Shown: positions 3,294 to 13,325 of the stretch, piece by piece
How positions within the stretch are numbered: the stretch's first letter is position 1
Layout: each line of letters begins with the position of its first letter
Assembly (NCBI GenBank): GCA_017519415.1
Contig: JAFWSI010000038.1
Span: forward strand, 1-41,410
DNA: 41,410 nucleotides
Source: Ruminococcus sp.
GTDB taxonomy: Bacteria; Bacillota; Clostridia; Oscillospirales; Ruminococcaceae
Direction of reading: 5' to 3'
Notes under the pieces: model-generated
The model's input: only the letters and a program-made list of their open reading frames with translations
What the model was told of the DNA's origin: nothing
Databases searched by the model: none
Translations under genes and position numbers: made by a program

Positions 3294-5222
3294 GTGAACA
3301 GACGAAGAAAAATAGCGGTAGTTGCCGCAGATATATTCAATGATTACATGAACCGTATACTGGTTGGCATATCAGAGCAGTGCAGGGCCCTTGAATATGA
3401 CGCATTCACCTTCCTGACGGTGTTCAATACCGACGGAGGAGGACCTATACAGTACGGTGAGGAGAACATCTTCACCCTTGTGGAAAAAGACGTGATAGAC
3501 GGCATAGTGCTGGTGGCGGGAAATGTTGCGGGGCAGAACCTTGTGAACAGGCTTTTCCCGATGCTTATGAGGTGCAATGTGCCCATGGTGTCGGTGGACT
3601 ATGACTTCGGCTTCTGCGAGAGCCTTTATGCCGACGATTCACATCTTATGGAGAAGATGACCGATCATTTCATAGAGGAGCACGGGTGCAGGCACATCGT
3701 CTGCCTTACGGGACCCGAGGGGAATACCCCCGCAATGACAAGACTTGAGGGCTACAAGCGCTCCATGGAAAAGCACGGTCTCGGTATAGGCAGAGGAGAT
3801 ATAATCTACGGCGACTTCTGGAAGGCTCCCGCCGAGAGGCTGGCAAAGGAGATCAGCAGCGGAGAAAGGGAAATGCCGGACGCAGTTGTATGCGCAAACG
3901 ATATAATGGCCAAGACTCTCTGCAATGCCCTGATAAGCGAGGGCATAAGAGTACCCGAGGACATACTTGTCTCGGGCTATGACGATTCCGACGACGCAAT
4001 GCTGAATATTCCCTCAATAACCACTATCTATCCCGAAAACGGACTTCTCGGTGCCAAGGCGGTATGCAGGCTCCATAAGCTGATAACGGGTGAGGAGGCG
4101 GAAACGGCTGATCTAAGCGACGGCAGGCTTATAAAGGCGCAGTCCTGCGGCTGCAATAAGGCGATCCAGTATGTGGCGGGAAAGCGCAGGGACCGCTATA
4201 ACAGGATAGAGCGCTTTGACCGCTATTACAGTCAGAGCGGTATGCTGGAGGGGCTTATGGTGGAGGAGAACCTTGACGGTCTTCTTCACAGCATAAACAG
4301 CTTCACCTATATAATCAACGGCCTTGAAGCCTATATGCTCTGTCTCTGCAAGAACTGGGACAACGTTGAGGAGCAGGGCGACGATTATGTCCGTAACGGC
4401 TATTCGGACATAATGGAAAAGAAAATGGCATGGGTGGGCGGACAGGCGGATTACGACAGCCGTGAGTTCCCGTCGGAGGATATACTTCCCGATTTTATAA
4501 GGGAGTACTGCGGCGATCCCGCGATGTATTTCTTTCTTCCCCTACATTTTATGGACCGCTGCTTCGGATATTCGGTATTCAGGTTCGACGATGTGAGAAG
4601 CGCCGTAAGCGGAATATTTGCAAGATGGAACAAGAATATCAGCGTAGCGCTGGAGTTCCTCCGAGTCCGCACAAAGCTGCTGAGCATAAACCAGCGCATA
4701 TACATGAGCTCGATCCGTGATACCCTCACTGGTATATACAACCGCAAGGGCTTCAGCAGGTTCTCGGAGATAATCTTCCGCAAGGCAAGGGCGGAGAGAA
4801 GAAGGCTGCTCATAATAGTTGCGGATCTTGACTGCCTCAAGCTCATAAACGACAACTTCGGACACATGGAGGGCGACAACGCCATAACCGTTGCTGCGAA
4901 CGCTCTCAATTCCTGCTGCGAGTTCAACGAGATCTGCGCCCGCACCGGCGGCGACGAGTATGCTCTCATCGGCTGCGGAGATTACGACGAAAAACTTATA
5001 GACGAGTATCTCGATTATATACACGAATATTTCAGAAGATACAATTCATCGTCGGGGAAGCCCTATGAGATAAGTCTCAGCCTCGGCTTCTGCTGCGAGA
5101 TACCGGATGAGGGCTCGGAGCTGGAAAGATATTACAATATCGCCGACGAGAGAATGTACGAGGATAAAAAGAAACGCAAGAAGAGGAGAGAGGATCAGGC
5201 TCAGTCCCGCGGCAGCGAATGA
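3294..5222 (+). CDS. Diguanylate cyclase with LacI-type sugar-binding sensor domain
   Basis: 642 residues with a GTG start 8 bases after a strong GGGGG ribosome site (3281-3285). Residues 1-285 resemble the periplasmic-binding-protein-like effector domain of LacI/GalR regulators, but there is no helix-turn-helix, signal peptide or membrane segment, so it is a cytoplasmic sensor. A middle region (about 300-455) has no family I can name. The C-terminal GGDEF domain (about 465-630) carries the active signature RTGGDEY with GGDEY at 552-556, so c-di-GMP synthesis from two GTP is expected. The upstream position of the RxxD inhibitory site is not conserved. It starts 27 bases after mutS2 and may be cotranscribed. 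The ligand is unknown; a sugar or nucleoside is inferred from the fold only. Confidence 0.88.
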   Translation: MNRRRKIAVVAADIFNDYMNRILVGISEQCRALEYDAFTFLTVFNTDGGGPIQYGEENIFTLVEKDVIDGIVLVAGNVAGQNLVNRLFPMLMRCNVPMVSVDYDFGFCESLYADDSHLMEKMTDHFIEEHGCRHIVCLTGPEGNTPAMTRLEGYKRSMEKHGLGIGRGDIIYGDFWKAPAERLAKEISSGEREMPDAVVCANDIMAKTLCNALISEGIRVPEDILVSGYDDSDDAMLNIPSITTIYPENGLLGAKAVCRLHKLITGEEAETADLSDGRLIKAQSCGCNKAIQYVAGKRRDRYNRIERFDRYYSQSGMLEGLMVEENLDGLLHSINSFTYIINGLEAYMLCLCKNWDNVEEQGDDYVRNGYSDIMEKKMAWVGGQADYDSREFPSEDILPDFIREYCGDPAMYFFLPLHFMDRCFGYSVFRFDDVRSAVSGIFARWNKNISVALEFLRVRTKLLSINQRIYMSSIRDTLTGIYNRKGFSRFSEIIFRKARAERRRLLIIVADLDCLKLINDNFGHMEGDNAITVAANALNSCCEFNEICARTGGDEYALIGCGDYDEKLIDEYLDYIHEYFRRYNSSSGKPYEISLSLGFCCEIPDEGSELERYYNIADERMYEDKKKRKKRREDQAQSRGSE

Positions 5223-5313
5223 GCAGATACGCTCCCGGGGCAATACTTTATATGTCAGACTATGCACCATGATACGCCATGTACGTTTTTCTTTGAAATG
5301 CTTTATATAAGTA

Positions 5314-5342
5314 TTGACAAAAAAACTGAAATATGATAAAAT
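5314..5342 (+). promoter_or_regulatory. Promoter of the structured RNA / polyamine operon
   Basis: A perfect -35 TTGACA (5314-5319), 17-base spacer and -10 TAAAAT (5337-5342). The predicted start near 5349 lies just before the first base of the long-range stem (5358), so promoter and RNA structure fit together. Between the cyclase stop (5222) and this promoter I see only a weak short hairpin. Confidence 0.8.
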
Positions 5343-5348
5343 AGATTA

Positions 5349-5813
5349 AATTGCAAAAGAAGCTTCGGTTTCAGAGCAAGACTATTGACCACTCCTTCCG
5401 GAGTCGAGGCCATACGGACAGCCGGGTCAAATGCCGACCGCCGGAAATCCGGCTGGCAACTTCTGTTGCCTTATTGATTCGACTGTACGTCGATAAGGGC
5501 ATCTCTAAAAGCCTATTTGGTCAAAGAAAAACCGGATAGGTGCAGAGGCAAGGAAAGACCTTGAAGGCGTGCTCTTGCACTCCAAAAGGTCTTGACACAG
5601 CATATGATGTGCATAGCTTGTTTTTCTGAATATGGGTTTTTAGAGATACCCTAAAGTTTTTATAAGTTCTCATCAGCTTGTGAAAGGTCAATAAGAGTAG
5701 TAAAAGGTAGACTTGCTTGTATAGACTCTGAAACCGTAAATGAAGTTTCTGCGTACTGCGATAGGTTATTTCATGCACACAATGGCTGATAAGGTCTTTT
5801 GTGTGCATTTTTT
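5349..5813 (+). ncRNA. Large structured RNA of unknown class ahead of speD
   Basis: A roughly 400-base RNA closed by long-range pairing. 5358-5366 pairs with 5742-5750 (9 bp, one G-U), 5367-5375 with 5727-5735 (9 bp perfect), 5376-5380 with 5712-5716 (5 bp) and 5384-5390 with 5686-5692 (7 bp perfect). These are nested and nearly continuous on the 5' side. Inside are compact hairpins: 5391-5404 (TTCC loop), 5440-5453 (AAAT loop), 5455-5470 (TTCT loop), 5480-5492, 5512-5540, and an 8-bp helix 5555-5562/5586-5593 enclosing 5569-5580. An intrinsic terminator follows. I checked by eye for RNase P RNA, tmRNA, SRP RNA and the common SAM, lysine, guanidine, cobalamin and c-di-GMP riboswitch cores and found no match. 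It is either a cis-regulator of speD or an independent RNA with its own promoter and terminator. Confidence 0.75.
5773..5813 (+). terminator. Terminator/attenuator between structured RNA and speD
   Basis: A perfect 10-bp stem (5773-5782 with 5799-5808) with a 16-base loop, followed by a run of T (5808-5813). It ends 19 bases before the speD start, so it would either end the noncoding RNA or act as a regulated attenuator of the polyamine operon. Confidence 0.82.
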
Positions 5814-5832
5814 GTTTAAAGGTGTGGTTTTT

Positions 5833-6603
5833 ATGGAGAATAAGCTTAAGCTTTACGGATTCAATAACCTTACGAAGTCTCTCAGCTTCAATATCTATGA
5901 TGTCTGTTATGCCAAGACGGCAAGGTCCCAGCAGGAGTACATCGCCTATGTTGACGAGCAGTACAACTCGGAGCGTATAACGGATATAATGACTCATGTA
6001 ACCGAGATGATAGGTGCGCAGGTGCTCAGCGTTTCAAGGCAGGATTACGATCCTCAGGGCGCTTCTGCCACCTTCCTTATCGCTGACGATACAATGATAC
6101 CTGCGGGGGGAAGCGAGACTGTTGCCCATCTCGACAAGAGCCATGTCACCGTGCATACCTATCCCGAATTCCACCCCGATACCAGCATAGCTACCTTCCG
6201 CGTGGACATCGACGTTGCCACCTGCGGAAAGATAACTCCGCTGACAGCTCTCGATTATCTTATCGGAAGCTTTGATTCGGATATAATCACAATGGATTAC
6301 AGAGTAAGAGGCTTTACCCGCAATCTTGACGGCGAAAAGCTTTTCATAGATCACGACATCACCTCGATACAGAATTATATCGACGCAAAGATACTGGATA
6401 AGTACGACGCGGTGGATATAAACGTATACCAGGCGAATATGTTCCATACGAAGATGCTCATAAAGGAACTCGATCTTCAGAATTATCTTTTCAACACAGA
6501 CGTTAACGAGCTCCCGCCGAGACGCAGGCTTGAGATAACCAACGCTCTCCAGCGGGAAATGATAGAAATTTTCAGCGGAAGGAACGTGTTCGGAAATGGC
6601 TGA
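5833..6603 (+). CDS. speD: S-adenosylmethionine decarboxylase proenzyme
   Basis: Makes decarboxylated SAM, the aminopropyl donor for spermidine synthase. It is a pyruvoyl enzyme that self-cleaves. The 256-residue product matches the E. coli-type (class 1) proenzyme of about 264 residues, not the short Bacillus type. The processing site [11 protein letters not shown] is intact, with the serine that becomes the pyruvoyl group at residue 103. The ATG at 5833 follows AAAGGTG at 5818-5824; an in-frame upstream extension to 5740 would run through the terminator hairpin and is rejected. First gene of the polyamine operon, it overlaps speA by 8 bases. Its expression probably depends on the terminator and structured RNA immediately upstream. 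Confidence 0.95.
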
Positions 6604-8047
6604 CCTTTCCCAGACAAATGCTCCCATATACGAAGCGCTGCGAAAATTCCGCCGCATGAGGGTTGTACCCTTTGACGTACCCGGACACAAGCGCGGCAGA
6701 GGAAATATGGAGCTCACAGAATTTCTCGGCGAGGACTGTATGAATGTGGACGTAAACTCCATGAAGCCCCTCGATAATCTCTGCCACCCCGTATCCGTCA
6801 TCAAGGACGCGGAGGAGCTGGCGGCAGAGGCTTTCGGAGCCGCAAACGCCTTCTTCATGGTGGGCGGCACGACCTCGGCGGTGCAGAGCATGATAATGTA
6901 CGCCTGCAAGGAGGGCGACAAGATAATCATGCCCCGCAATGTTCACAGGAGCGCGATAAACGCGATAATTATCACGGGCGCTGTGCCTGTTTACGTCAAT
7001 CCCGACGTAAACCATAAGCTGGGCATAGCTCTCGGTATGTCCGTGGCTCAGGTGGAGCAGGCAATACTCGACAACCCCGACGCCAAGGCTATAATGGTCA
7101 ACAATCCCACATACTACGGTATATGCTCCGACCTGAAAAGGATAACGGAGCTTGCTCATGCCCACGGTATGCTGGTGCTGGTGGACGAGGCTCACGGCAC
7201 ACATTTCTATTTCGGGGATAATTTCCCCATGACCGCCATGGCTGCGGGAGCAGACTGCGCCTCCGTAAGTATGCACAAGTCCGGAGGAAGCCTTACACAG
7301 AGCTCCTTCCTGCTTCTCGGAAAAAATGTCAACGCAGACTATATGCGTCAGGTCATAAATCTTACCCAGACCACCAGCGCTTCCTATCTGCTGCTGTCGA
7401 GCCTTGACATATCAAGGAAAAGACTTGCTCTCAGCGGACGTGAGATATTCGCGCAGACCGTTGAGATGGCGGAATACGCCCGTGCCGAGATAAACGAGAT
7501 AGGCGGCTATTACGCCTATTCACGGGAGCTTATAAACGGCGACAGCATATATGATTTCGACGTGTCCAAGCTGAGTATCTACACTCTGCCCATAGGACTT
7601 GCGGGTATCGAGGTCTACGACCTTCTCCGCGACGAGTACGATATACAGATAGAATTCGGCGATATAGGCAACGTTCTCGCATATATATCCGTAGGCGACA
7701 GAAAACGTGATATAGAACGACTCATAAGTGCTCTTGCGGAGATAAAGCGCCGTTTCGGAAAGAGCGGCGCGGATATGCTCACTCAGGAGTACATCAGTCC
7801 TGTGGTGGCGGAGACTCCGAGAAAGGCCTTCTACGCGGAAAAACTATCCCTCCCTCTGGAGGAGACTGCGGGAGAGGTATGCAGCGAGTTTGTAATGTGC
7901 TATCCTCCCGGCATTCCCATACTGGCTCCGGGAGAGCTGATAACTCCCGAGATAATAGAGTATATAAAGTACGCCAAGGAAAAGGGCTGCCAGATGACGG
8001 GTACAGAGGACATAAACATAGAAAGGCTCAACGTTCTTGACTTCTGA
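6596..8047 (+). CDS. speA: Arginine decarboxylase (Orn/Lys/Arg decarboxylase family, PLP)
   Basis: 483-residue fold-type I PLP decarboxylase of the shorter Gram-positive type, without the receiver-like N-terminal wing of the E. coli inducible enzymes. The PLP lysine is K228 in [13 protein letters not shown], and VDEAHGTH carries the cofactor aspartate. The C-terminal part holds the usual [13 protein letters not shown] motif. Substrate specificity within this family is hard to read from sequence. Arginine is favoured because an agmatinase gene lies in the same operon, giving arginine to agmatine to putrescine. Lysine or ornithine remains possible. It overlaps the end of speD by 8 bases, suggesting translational coupling. 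Confidence 0.9.
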
Positions 8048-8757: not shown

Positions 8758-9609
8758 ATGGAATTATGGTTCACGGAGAGACATACTCCGAACGTTAAGT
8801 TTTCAATAAAGGTAGATCATCAGCTTTACAGCGGCAACAGCGAGTTCCAGCGCATCGACGTTTTCGATTCCAAGGAGTTCGGCCGCTTCCTCACCCTTGA
8901 CGGATATATGATGCTCACGGAAAAGGACGAGTTCATATACCATGAGATGATAACCCATGTTCCTATGTCGGTGCACCCGAATCCGAAGAACATACTCGTC
9001 ATCGGCGCAGGGGACGGCGGAGTTGTCCGCGAGCTTACGCGGTATGCCTCCGTCGAGAGCATAGACCTTGTGGAGATAGACGAGCTCGTGGTTGAGGTCT
9101 GCAAGAAGTACCTTCCTACGACCGCCTGCCGGTTCGACGATCCGAGAGTCCATGTTTTTTACGAGGACGGTGTGAAGTTCATACGCCGCTGTACAGACCA
9201 GTACGACGTTATAATCGTGGATTCCACCGATCCTTTCGGACCGGGTGAAGGACTTTTCACCAAGGAATTCTACGGAAGCTGCTTCAAGGCGCTCCGCGAC
9301 GACGGTATCATGGTAAACCAGCATGAGAGCCCGTTTTACGACGAGGACGCAGCCGCAATGCAGCGCTCCCACAAGCGTATAGTGGAGAGTTTCCCCATAA
9401 GCAAGGTGTATCAGGCGCATATCCCGACCTATCCCTCGGGACACTGGCTCTTCGGCTTCGCTTCAAAGAAATATCACCCGACCAACGACTATAACGGCAC
9501 AAAATGGAGTATGCTGGGCATAAAGACGCGCTACTACAACCCAAGGCTCCATACGGGAGCATTTGCTCTCCCATGCTATGTAGAGGAGCTTCTCAGAGAT
9601 GTTGAATAA
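8758..9609 (+). CDS. speE: Spermidine synthase (polyamine aminopropyltransferase)
   Basis: 283 residues, normal length. It transfers the aminopropyl group of decarboxylated SAM to putrescine. Visible landmarks are the small N-terminal beta domain (1-60), the nucleotide-binding motif VIGAGDGGVVRE with GAGDGG at 83-88, the acidic strand DLVEIDE, and the catalytic aspartate region VDSTDPFGP (155-163). The C-terminal YPSGHW segment is also family-typical. The start codon follows ACGGAGG at 8744-8750. Its donor is supplied by SpeD at the head of the operon and its acceptor by SpeA plus SpeB. It overlaps speB by 11 bases. Confidence 0.95.
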   Translation: MELWFTERHTPNVKFSIKVDHQLYSGNSEFQRIDVFDSKEFGRFLTLDGYMMLTEKDEFIYHEMITHVPMSVHPNPKNILVIGAGDGGVVRELTRYASVESIDLVEIDELVVEVCKKYLPTTACRFDDPRVHVFYEDGVKFIRRCTDQYDVIIVDSTDPFGPGEGLFTKEFYGSCFKALRDDGIMVNQHESPFYDEDAAAMQRSHKRIVESFPISKVYQAHIPTYPSGHWLFGFASKKYHPTNDYNGTKWSMLGIKTRYYNPRLHTGAFALPCYVEELLRDVE

Positions 9610-10450
9610 GAATGTACAGACCTTTATCGCCTGCGACAGCGAGTATGAGGACGCAAGGATAGTCCTTTTCGGAGCAGGATTCGACGGTACCACAAGTTTC
9701 CGTCCGGGAACGAGATTTGCCCCCTCGGCTGTCCGCAATGAGAGCTTCGGCATCGAGACCTACAGTCCCTATCAGAACAAGGACATGACAGACTACAGCT
9801 ACTTCGACAGCGGAGACTTAGAGCTGCCTTTCGGCAATACAAAGCAGGCAGTCGCAGATATAGCAGTACGCTCAGAGGAGATACTTGCCGACGGCAAGCT
9901 GCCCTTTATGATAGGCGGCGAGCACCTTGTAACTCTGGGTTCTGTCAAGGCGGTCAATGACAAGTACGCCGACCTTTATATCGTTCACTTTGACGCACAC
10001 GCCGATCTCCGAGACGACTATCTCGGTCAGCAGATGTCCCATGCCTGTGTGCTGAGGCGCTGTCACGAGCTTGTGGGAGACGGGCATATCTTCCAGTTCG
10101 GTATCCGCAGCGGAGACAGGGAGGAATTCCTCTTTGCTGACAGGCATACGGAAATGCACAAATTCAGCTTCGACGGTCTTGAGGAGACCGTGGAAAAGCT
10201 CATGGGCAGGAACGTATACTTCACTCTTGATCTTGATGTTCTCGATCCGTCTGTTTTCCCGGGCACCGGAACGCCCGAAGCCGGAGGCGTCACCTTTGAC
10301 GAGCTGAGAAGGGCAGTGACTCTCGTTTGCAGCGAGCTCAATATTGTGGGCTGCGATGTGAACGAGCTCAGTCCCGTATACGATCAGAGCGGAGTTTCCA
10401 CAGCAGTCGCCTGCAAGATAATCAGGGAAATGCTGCTGGCGCTGTCATAA
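9599..10450 (+). CDS. speB: Agmatinase (ureohydrolase family)
   Basis: 283-residue manganese ureohydrolase that cleaves agmatine to putrescine and urea. The binuclear metal ligands are present: H109 in GGEH, the D132-x-H134-x-D136 cluster in FDAHADLRDD, and D211 and D213 in TLDLDVLDPS. The active-site segment near GTGTPEAGG is also conserved. Arginase or formimidoylglutamase activity is formally possible within the family, but the operon with arginine decarboxylase and spermidine synthase genes argues for agmatinase. The gene starts inside the 3' end of speE (11-base overlap), so translation is probably coupled. Confidence 0.93.
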   Translation: MLNKNVQTFIACDSEYEDARIVLFGAGFDGTTSFRPGTRFAPSAVRNESFGIETYSPYQNKDMTDYSYFDSGDLELPFGNTKQAVADIAVRSEEILADGKLPFMIGGEHLVTLGSVKAVNDKYADLYIVHFDAHADLRDDYLGQQMSHACVLRRCHELVGDGHIFQFGIRSGDREEFLFADRHTEMHKFSFDGLEETVEKLMGRNVYFTLDLDVLDPSVFPGTGTPEAGGVTFDELRRAVTLVCSELNIVGCDVNELSPVYDQSGVSTAVACKIIREMLLALS

Positions 10451-12122: not shown

Positions 12123-13325
12123 ATGGGAAAATGTATGATAATCGGCTGCGGAGGAGTTGCTTCCGTAGCGATCCACAAGTGCTGTCAGAACAGCGAGGTA
12201 TTTGAGGGCATAATGATAGCCAGCCGTACCAAGTCAAAGTGCGACGCGCTGAAGGAGAAGCTCCAGCCTACAACAAAGACCGTTATCGAGACCGCACAGG
12301 TAAACGCCGACAACGTGGACGAGCTCGTTGCCCTTATCAACAGCTACAAGCCGGACGTAGTGCTCAACCTTGCGCTGCCTTATCAGGACCTCACTATCAT
12401 GGACGCCTGCCTCGCTACAAAGACTAATTACGTTGATACTGCAAACTATGAGCCCCTTGATACTGCAAAGTTCGAGTACAAGTGGCAGTGGGCTTACCGC
12501 GAGAGATTTGAGAAGGCAGGTATCACCGCCCTCCTCGGAAGCGGTTTTGACCCGGGCGTTACGGGAGTATTCTCCGCTTACGCTATGAAGCATGAGTTCG
12601 ACGAGATAAACTACATCGACATTCTCGACTGCAACGGCGGCGACCACGGTTATCCCTTTGCCACAAACTTCAATCCCGAGATAAATATCCGTGAGGTATC
12701 AGCAAAGGGCAGCTACATCGAGGACGGCAAGTGGGTAGAGACAGAGCCCATGGAGATAAAGAGAGTTTACAACTTCAAGGGAGTAGGCGAAAAGGATATG
12801 TATCTTCTTCACCACGAGGAGCTTGAGTCCCTTGCTCTCAATATCAAGGGCATCAAGCGTATCCGCTTCTTCATGACCTTCGGCCAGAGCTACCTGACAC
12901 ACTTAAAGTGCCTTGAAAATGTGGGCATGACCTCTATCGAGCCTATTATGTACGAGGGAAAGGAGATAGTACCTCTCCAGTTCCTCAAGGCAGTTCTTCC
13001 CGATCCTGCTTCGCTTGGTCCGAGAACAGTGGGCAAGACCAATATCGGCTGTATCTTCCGCGGAAAGAAGGACGGCAAGGACAAGAACTACTACCTTTAC
13101 AATATATGCGATCATCAGGAGTGCTACAGGGAGGTCGGCTCGCAGGCCATCTCCTATACCACGGGCGTGCCTGCTATGATTGGCGCCATGATGATAATGA
13201 CGGGCACATGGAAGAAGGCAGGAGTATACAATATCGAGGAATTCGATCCCGATCCCTTCATGGAGGCTCTCAACAAGTGGGGACTCCCATGGGAGGAGGA
13301 CTTCGATCCGGTGCTCGTAGACTGA
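12123..13325 (+). CDS. Carboxynorspermidine/carboxyspermidine dehydrogenase (saccharopine dehydrogenase family)
   Basis: 400 residues. N-terminal Rossmann motif IIGCGGVAS (residues 7-15) followed by the ASRTKSKC segment typical of NADPH binding in this family. The enzyme condenses aspartate semialdehyde with a diamine (putrescine or diaminopropane) and reduces the imine to a carboxylated triamine. It is assigned to polyamine metabolism rather than lysine metabolism because its partner decarboxylase nspC lies in the same operon and putrescine-forming genes lie upstream. The length and the DPGVTGVFSAYA segment fit the Lys1-like branch. A strong GGAGG at 12111-12115 sets the start. Confidence 0.9.
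   Translation: MGKCMIIGCGGVASVAIHKCCQNSEVFEGIMIASRTKSKCDALKEKLQPTTKTVIETAQVNADNVDELVALINSYKPDVVLNLALPYQDLTIMDACLATKTNYVDTANYEPLDTAKFEYKWQWAYRERFEKAGITALLGSGFDPGVTGVFSAYAMKHEFDEINYIDILDCNGGDHGYPFATNFNPEINIREVSAKGSYIEDGKWVETEPMEIKRVYNFKGVGEKDMYLLHHEELESLALNIKGIKRIRFFMTFGQSYLTHLKCLENVGMTSIEPIMYEGKEIVPLQFLKAVLPDPASLGPRTVGKTNIGCIFRGKKDGKDKNYYLYNICDHQECYREVGSQAISYTTGVPAMIGAMMIMTGTWKKAGVYNIEEFDPDPFMEALNKWGLPWEEDFDPVLVD

Follow-up and report, generated by a model that had tools for sequence, protein, structure and literature searches.

The polyamine operon of a Ruminococcus sp. genome (assembly GCA_017519415.1, contig JAFWSI010000038.1) is preceded by a long, highly structured RNA, which raises the question of what this RNA is and whether it governs the genes that follow. 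The stretch of DNA that was analysed, hereafter the window, comprises 41,410 nucleotides. An original prediction, made from the letters alone, had described an RNA of approximately 400 nt that matched none of the common large RNAs or riboswitch cores, and had suggested either an orphan riboswitch sensing SAM, decarboxylated SAM, spermidine or agmatine, or a stand-alone ornate noncoding RNA. According to the analysis reported here, Rfam already contains a fragment of this RNA; judging from sequence comparisons, it is best read as a widespread leader of polyamine genes, very probably a riboswitch that responds to spermidine or a closely related polyamine, and in this genome it is interrupted by a MITE.

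The leader in front of the polyamine operon

The 610-base gap between the gene for a GGDEF protein and speD contains a promoter, the leader RNA and a terminator, followed by the speD ATG at 5833 (Table 1). By chance alone, 1.5 promoter-like sites would be expected per region; the site is also visible at the equivalent place in a 30-locus alignment. Folding of 5340-5820 reaches a minimum free energy (MFE) of -170.4 kcal/mol (z -7.0), a value as low being attained by 0/100 shuffled sequences. The predicted arrangement of promoter, structured RNA and terminator is borne out. It is of note that a simple terminator scan overlooked the real terminator and returned two internal hairpins instead. The carboxynorspermidine synthase-like gene at 12123-13325 lies downstream of the speD/speE operon, and its score below the model cut-off means that its substrate may differ. 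Just upstream of the gap, positions 3294-5222 encode LacI-type periplasmic-binding-like domains fused to GGDEF.

Table 1. Coordinates of the leader RNA, its regulatory signals and the neighbouring polyamine genes in the window
Feature	Position	Strand	Details
Promoter	5314-5342	+	-35 TTGACA 5314-5319, 17-nt spacer, -10 TAAAAT 5337-5342; 11/12 consensus matches
Leader RNA element including MITE	5359-5735	+	R1 match 5366-5732
P1 outer, 5' strands	5359-5376	+	GAAGCUUC 5359-5366 with GAAGUUUC 5742-5749; sequence, MFE, permutation test
P1 outer, second part	5367-5376	+	GGUUUCAGAG pairs with CUCUGAAACC 5726-5735
P1 inner, 5' strand AGCAAG	5375-5380	+	pseudoknot; partner strand CUUGCU 5712-5717 in the PI loop
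Helix PA	5385-5430	+	UUGACC 5385-5390 / GGUCAA 5425-5430
Rfam RF02440 SpF59_sRNA (ldcC RNA) match	5386-5437	+	70.3 bits, E 8e-11, gathering 37.2
Hairpin PB, within PA	5391-5395 / 5400-5404	+	
Core hairpin	5408-5410 / 5421-5423	+	GGC / GCC; encloses conserved ACGGACA 5414-5420
PC region hairpins	5440-5453, 5455-5470	+	GCCGG/CCGGC, GGCAAC/GUUGCC; MFE, alignment
PD, 5' strand UUAUUGA	5471-5477	+	pairs with UCAAUAA 5688-5694; 96.4% of cells paired, hardly variable
Hairpin PE	5479-5493	+	UCGAC/GUCGA; two-sided changes in 5/5 pairs
Target-site duplication TAA	5494-5496 (left), 5652-5654 (right)	.	empty site in L159
MITE, 155 bp	5497-5651	.	GGGCATCTCTAAAA / TTTTTAGAGATACCC as terminal inverted repeats with a single mismatch
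Helix PH	5658-5685	+	UUUUAUAAGU 5658-5667 with GCUUGUGAAA 5676-5685
Hairpin PI	5694-5729	+	AGAGU 5694-5698 / ACUCU 5725-5729; 97.0% paired, zero two-sided change
Intrinsic terminator	5773-5813	+	AUGCACACAA / UUGUGUGCAU and U run; 10 bp; 19 bases 5' of speD ATG
speD, adenosylmethionine decarboxylase	5833-6603	+	TIGR03331
speA/ldcC-type Orn/Lys/Arg decarboxylase	6596-8047	+	PF01276
speE, polyamine aminopropyltransferase	8758-9609	+	NCBIfam
speB, agmatinase	9599-10450	+	NCBIfam
Carboxynorspermidine synthase/dehydrogenase-like gene	12123-13325	+	NF043000, 407 bits vs cut-off 800

A mobile element within the leader

The stretch 5497-5651, situated between PE and PH, is a MITE, as revealed by its inverted repeats, target duplication, empty site and dispersed copies. 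The clean empty site is found in a near relative, Ruminococcus sp. RUI288 (L159), whose decarboxylase is 95.9% identical. Matches to the 155-bp element occur in 19/60 genomes of the same genus including the window's own (18/59 others), many of them spanning exactly positions 1-155; three genomes have at least 14 matches each, a few display partial matches only, and the window's own genome, which is 75% complete, contains one match. Both the MITE alone (z -6.7) and the uninterrupted leader of L159 (z -6.1) fold, and the landing of the element probably leaves the core of the leader pairable. The predicted size of about 400 nt and part of the nested pairing are consequences of this insertion: the conserved element is approximately 210 nt long and lies mostly outside Rfam's model, whereas the remainder of the long-range pairing is real and is kept in homologues (see below). 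The UGUGCAU of the MITE (5608-5614) is also complementary to AUGCACA of the terminator (5773-5779), so that the insertion could act as an antiterminator, a complementarity that may be due to chance.

Rfam match and spread of homologues

When the whole window was scanned with cmscan against Rfam 15, RF02440 was the sole match above gathering, and since it covers 52 nt of the leader, the earlier statement that the RNA resembles no known family had to be dropped. T-box and other Rfam leader RNAs yielded no match at gathering in the whole window, and a scan of 5200-5950 at a lax threshold gave three other matches, all far under their cut-offs. No RNA of the SAM family was detected in 5200-5950 (E up to 5) or, at gathering, in ten homologue loci; nine of these ten are matched by RF02440, the exception being a copy from Lactococcus. 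The RF02440 model is 54 nt long, pairs just the PA and PB regions and is filed as 'Gene; sRNA'; the core hairpin, PC through PI, P1 and the terminator are absent from it, and the entry as displayed gives no function. It is found in 38/148 genomes of the family and in 18/398 genomes of the phylum, the window's genome being counted in both.

A 19-base core pattern scanned over named genomes identified at least 118 stretches, four of which (L068, L093, L102, L117) were discarded as chance matches within coding sequence. Hosts among the matches listed are Paenibacillus, Bacillus, Neobacillus, Kurthia, Lactococcus, Acidaminococcus, Phascolarctobacterium, Blautia, Gemmiger and Faecalibacterium, as well as one MAG labelled Spirochaetes. 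Conservation extends well beyond the Rfam piece: a second conserved block, GUCAAUAAGAGUAGUAAAAG ... GCUAUAUAGACUCUG, mostly starts 110 to 150 nt downstream, being absent or unrecognisable in some copies. A covariance model of 221 positions, R1, built without the pseudoknot, matches the window with 107.7 bits (E 9e-29). Class-wide searches with the structure model matched 36/348 genomes in one class and 47/341 in the other, and a family-level model search matched 44/148 genomes; a complete genome of the same genus (G019) had no match in the latter search, indicating that the distribution of the RNA is patchy.

A conserved fold

The fold was examined in an alignment of 46 homologues (A1), of which the window itself is not a member. 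From 165 loci, the 133 that carried both conserved blocks and a usable 5' flank were reduced to 96, 78 and 47 by de-duplication and length limits, and one further locus (L121), whose anchor looked misplaced, was then dropped; a first MAFFT run had been blurred by the flanks. The structure drawn by hand on A1 comprises ten helices and 61 pairs, and nine of the helices contain covarying pairs. Paired cells amount to 86.9%, as compared to 81.7% in shuffles, and the covariation score is 0.196 versus 0.112 +/- 0.004 in shuffled alignments (0/500 as high) and 0.041-0.076 with slid partners, in a test where the structure was drawn from the same sequences and the shuffles ignore relatedness. Two-sided changes affect 28/61 pairs, which is no higher than the 21-30 of slid versions. 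Covariation among homologues, put forward with the original prediction as a check, is present by its score. PB and PE are the strongest helices; PC and PG covary, yet are paired in just 63-66% of cells, and PD and PI are nearly invariant.

The long-range helix P1 was assessed separately in 100 copies (96 de-duplicated loci, the window and three long copies). Pairing between each 5' flank and its own 3' flank reached -28.5 kcal/mol, against -21.8 +/- 0.39 for permuted partners (0/2000 permutations); the own partner was the best of all for just 11/100 copies, with a median rank of 9.5. PI is incompatible with the outer P1 pairing of 5367-5376 with 5726-5735, and its loop carries the 3' strand of inner P1, the 5' strand of which comes ahead of GACC.

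The core, GGCCAUACGGACAGCC, is near-invariant, and was given a hairpin on the grounds that GGC...GCC is replaced in divergent copies by GCC...GGC (L235, L237, L238) or by AGC...GCU (L047, L195, L261), variants gathered with a loose filter that lists many chance sites too. RNAalifold alone proposed 25 pairs, without PD, PH and P1, and drew the core as CGG/CCG; the GGC/GCC pairing was preferred because L235, L237 and L238 are unable to form CGG/CCG. By eye, L083, L145 and L153 carry long extra hairpins at PE or at PF/PG, suggesting that the periphery tolerates large additions. In addition, a potA-linked copy (L272, minus strand, about 2494-2953) has no PA/PB/core module and contains a different inverted-repeat insertion of about 275 bp near PG, which may be another mobile element that has entered this RNA.

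Genes downstream of the leader

The regions following the core in the 165 loci were searched by tblastn with six references: speD, the ldcC-type gene, speE, speB and the carboxynorspermidine synthase/dehydrogenase-like (CANSDH-like) gene of the window, and a potA. The first match was ldcC-type in 58 loci, speD in 42, potA in 27 and CANSDH-like in 24, while 14 had none; the latter comprise seven with less than 250 nt after the core, the four chance matches and three that were assigned by eye (L087 and L134 to speD, L161 to a CANSDH-like gene). A polyamine gene is thus located downstream in 154/154 assessable loci (151 distinct), that is, the 165 minus the four chance matches and the seven short ones; a search with six references leaves room for other intervening genes, and in L116 a single short ORF comes ahead of potA. 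As tblastn misses divergent speD, the first polyamine gene was also assigned by protein motif, giving speD 64, ldcC-type 38, potA 27 and CANSDH-like 24, together with L096, which is CANSDH-like by tblastn only; 151/154 motifs are situated within 700 nt.

A less biased test is provided by the class-wide structure-model searches, in which a polyamine gene is found downstream in 83/83 matched genomes, including the window's own and a few that overlap the 165 loci. This cis position makes a free-standing sRNA gene, the type under which RF02440 is filed, less likely. Taken together, covariation and gene association strongly support the view that polyamine genes are preceded by a structured RNA. The genes involved are diverse: a Neobacillus copy (L073) precedes a carboxynorspermidine synthase-like gene and nspC, and another (L140) precedes potA with potB- and potD-like genes. 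The carboxynorspermidine synthase-like proteins score 407-418 bits, under the model cut-off of 800, a score that does not settle their substrate.

At the family level, where the gene check covered the matches other than L193, L195 and L196, two weak matches from different genera (L270:488-693 in G101 and L271:519-721 in G075) lie ahead of a gene that encodes a secreted C39-like cysteine peptidase, and of no polyamine gene. Both keep the GGCCA-ACGGACAGCC core, GCCGAAUUAG and ACUUGU; they look like true but divergent relatives, possibly a branch with another target.

Terminator and proposed antiterminator pairing

A hairpin followed by a U run was detected after the RNA in 96/100 copies, the set being that of the P1 test, by a scan that had no shuffled control and of whose hits at least one (L147) lies within coding sequence. 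The copies without one were L135, L141, L162 and L072, the last of which ends too soon; by eye, an obvious terminator is absent from L098, L112, L125 and L090. A second control mode would therefore be needed for some copies. In this respect, L098:3399-3600, from the MAG labelled Spirochaetes, has no U-rich terminator and displays, by eye, AAUCCCCCCG / CGGAGGGAUU over a likely ribosome-binding site, an arrangement that suggests translational control.

ACUUGUG, within the 3' strand of PH, could be aligned in 95 of the 96 copies with a terminator, and in 44/95 the 5' arm of the terminator can form at least five Watson-Crick pairs with it, as compared to a mean of 4.7 and a maximum of 14 for letter-shuffled arms (200 rounds), although related terminators are not independent samples. 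Along the core, arm complementarity peaks at ACUUGUG (0.46-0.51, versus a median over offsets of 0.03). Grouped by the gene named by tblastn, the pairing is found in 6/8 CANSDH, 16/30 speD, 21/43 ldcC, 1/13 potA and 0/1 unassigned copies, so that the excess is absent in those linked to potA. The window itself offers five pairs only, between CACAA (5778-5782) of the terminator 5' arm and UUGUG (5678-5682) of PH. These observations lead us to infer that PH and an antiterminator compete.

Proposed function and alternative explanations

One feature expected of a riboswitch is present here: functionally linked genes share a 5' leader whose fold is conserved and covaries. The leader is likely to act in cis by sensing a polyamine, spermidine in the first place, and to switch the polyamine operon off via transcription termination. 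The conserved fold, the near-exclusive cis link to genes of polyamine synthesis and import, the terminator and the excess of arms complementary to ACUUGUG are all directly observed. Direct ligand binding, the identity of the ligand and the direction of the switch are what we infer. The sensing domain would consist of PA, PB, the ACGGACA core hairpin, PC, the PD-PE-PH region and the P1/PI pseudoknot. Ligand would hold this domain folded and keep ACUUGUG locked in PH, allowing the terminator to form and leaving speD untranscribed; when ligand is scarce, ACUUGUG would pair with the 5' arm of the terminator, and transcription would proceed.

What the decarboxylated-SAM route, the carboxyspermidine route and Pot import share is spermidine; SAM, decarboxylated SAM and agmatine do not figure in all three. 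Spermidine is favoured as ligand for this reason, since the RNA precedes genes of all three, including the operon of a CANSDH-like gene with nspC, a route without decarboxylated SAM, and the pot genes. From the list of candidate ligands originally proposed, spermidine, or another polyamine, is accordingly retained, while the other three are less parsimonious. On balance, though with less assurance than for the leader in the window, the homologues would constitute a widespread class of polyamine riboswitches, not described as such in the literature covered, that is approximately 210 nt in size and has ACGGACA as its core and a pseudoknot between P1 and PI. It would occur in Clostridia, Bacilli and possibly Spirochaetes and serve polyamine import as well as spermidine synthesis by two unrelated routes; the branch of L270 and L271 may differ in ligand or target.

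Other explanations have to be weighed against a ligand-binding switch. The leader could act in cis but be read by a polyamine-responsive protein or another macromolecule, a reading that the cis association and the terminator fit equally well and for which large protein-bound leaders offer precedent. It is unlikely, as a dedicated binder would be needed from Oscillospirales to Paenibacillus and Lactococcus, and as a pseudoknot, together with numerous invariant nucleotides scattered along the RNA, is more aptamer-like. It is improbable, too, that the element is a stand-alone or trans-acting sRNA that merely sits ahead of the operon and stops at the terminator. Such an RNA would account for the element having its own promoter and terminator, for the listing of the pneumococcal F59 as an sRNA and for the lung fitness of 0.05 given by Tn-seq for srn235/SN20 in the available part of PMC3395615. 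A trans-acting RNA, however, need not stay upstream of polyamine genes, as this one does in every one of the 83 class-wide matched genomes, and the effect seen by Tn-seq might reflect polarity on SP0916, the listed downstream neighbour. The same near-constant cis association speaks against the ornate noncoding RNA of the original prediction.

An attenuator operated by a leader peptide (upstream ORF), like speFL, is evoked by a GTG that opens a short frame across GUGAAACGGUCAAUAAGAGUAGUAAAAG in most rows of A1. The spacing from CAAUAAG to GCUAUAUAG nevertheless varies from 23 to 29, not in threes (27 in 60/132; 23, 25, 26, 28 or 29 in the rest), and that from CUUGUG to CAAUAAG departs from its usual length in 15/132, mostly by one base. 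Such frame-breaking spacing between conserved blocks speaks against a conserved short reading frame of the speFL type; in addition, GUA replaces the start in L013, L028, L072 and L115, and no Shine-Dalgarno sequence is seen by eye before it, making a leader peptide highly improbable. That the fold arose by chance, or is simply the hairpin of the inserted MITE, could be argued from the stability of the MITE alone, but is hardly credible given the stability of the uninterrupted L159 leader and a covariation score above that of every shuffle.

Significance and relation to known RNAs

Should the leader prove to bind a polyamine, gut Firmicutes and Paenibacillus would have in it a major regulator of how polyamines are made and taken up, and the pneumococcal F59/srn235 locus would have to be reinterpreted as a switch acting in cis on speA. 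With the copy bearing the MITE, nature has in effect carried out an insertion experiment on a large RNA. MITEs being non-autonomous transposons, 5497-5651 is ordinary in kind, and notable just for having landed inside a leader RNA.

SpF59_sRNA (RF02440) is the same RNA as the leader of the window, as far as the 52 matched nucleotides extend. No paper on SpF59, ldcC RNA or RF02440 was found in the literature covered, which included no preprints and few subscription journals, so that a description may exist elsewhere; the main text of Narunsky 2024 (PMC11109978) contains no mention of ldcC, polyamine, speD, lysine decarboxylase or spermidine. The name 'ldcC RNA' in Rfam suggests that someone noticed the gene. 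In the pneumococcus, F59 has been placed at 869510-869591, between SP0915 and SP0916 (PMC3395615, available part), the latter being the arginine decarboxylase gene speA (PMC7990898, available part), and the available part of a review (PMC4387999) includes F59 as a lung entry in its table. A 2025 list gives srn235/F59/Spd_sr49 at 869478-869804, a span of 327 nt, as a putative sRNA found by sequencing (available parts of PMC12323649 and PMC3395615). This RNA (F59, srn235, SN20 or Spd_sr49) is a probable homologue, equated with SpF59 by name and gene position, not by DNA comparison; in the available parts of PMC3395615 and PMC12323649 it is listed as a putative sRNA, and a cis-acting polyamine switch is not proposed.

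The closest functional parallel is the SAM-I-variant spermidine riboswitch, reported in 2023 with 13 examples and associated with speE, speB, speD and ldcC, which acts as a spermidine off-switch via transcription termination; according to the available part of that report, earlier evidence for natural polyamine riboswitches was unconvincing (PMC10853860). That RNA derives from the SAM-I aptamer, whereas the leader described here has, in the scans of 5200-5950 and of ten homologue loci, no match to the SAM family; it is a different RNA and, with occurrences in 36/348 and 47/341 sampled genomes of two classes, one that is far commoner than the 13 examples in the available part of the report on the SAM-I-variant class.
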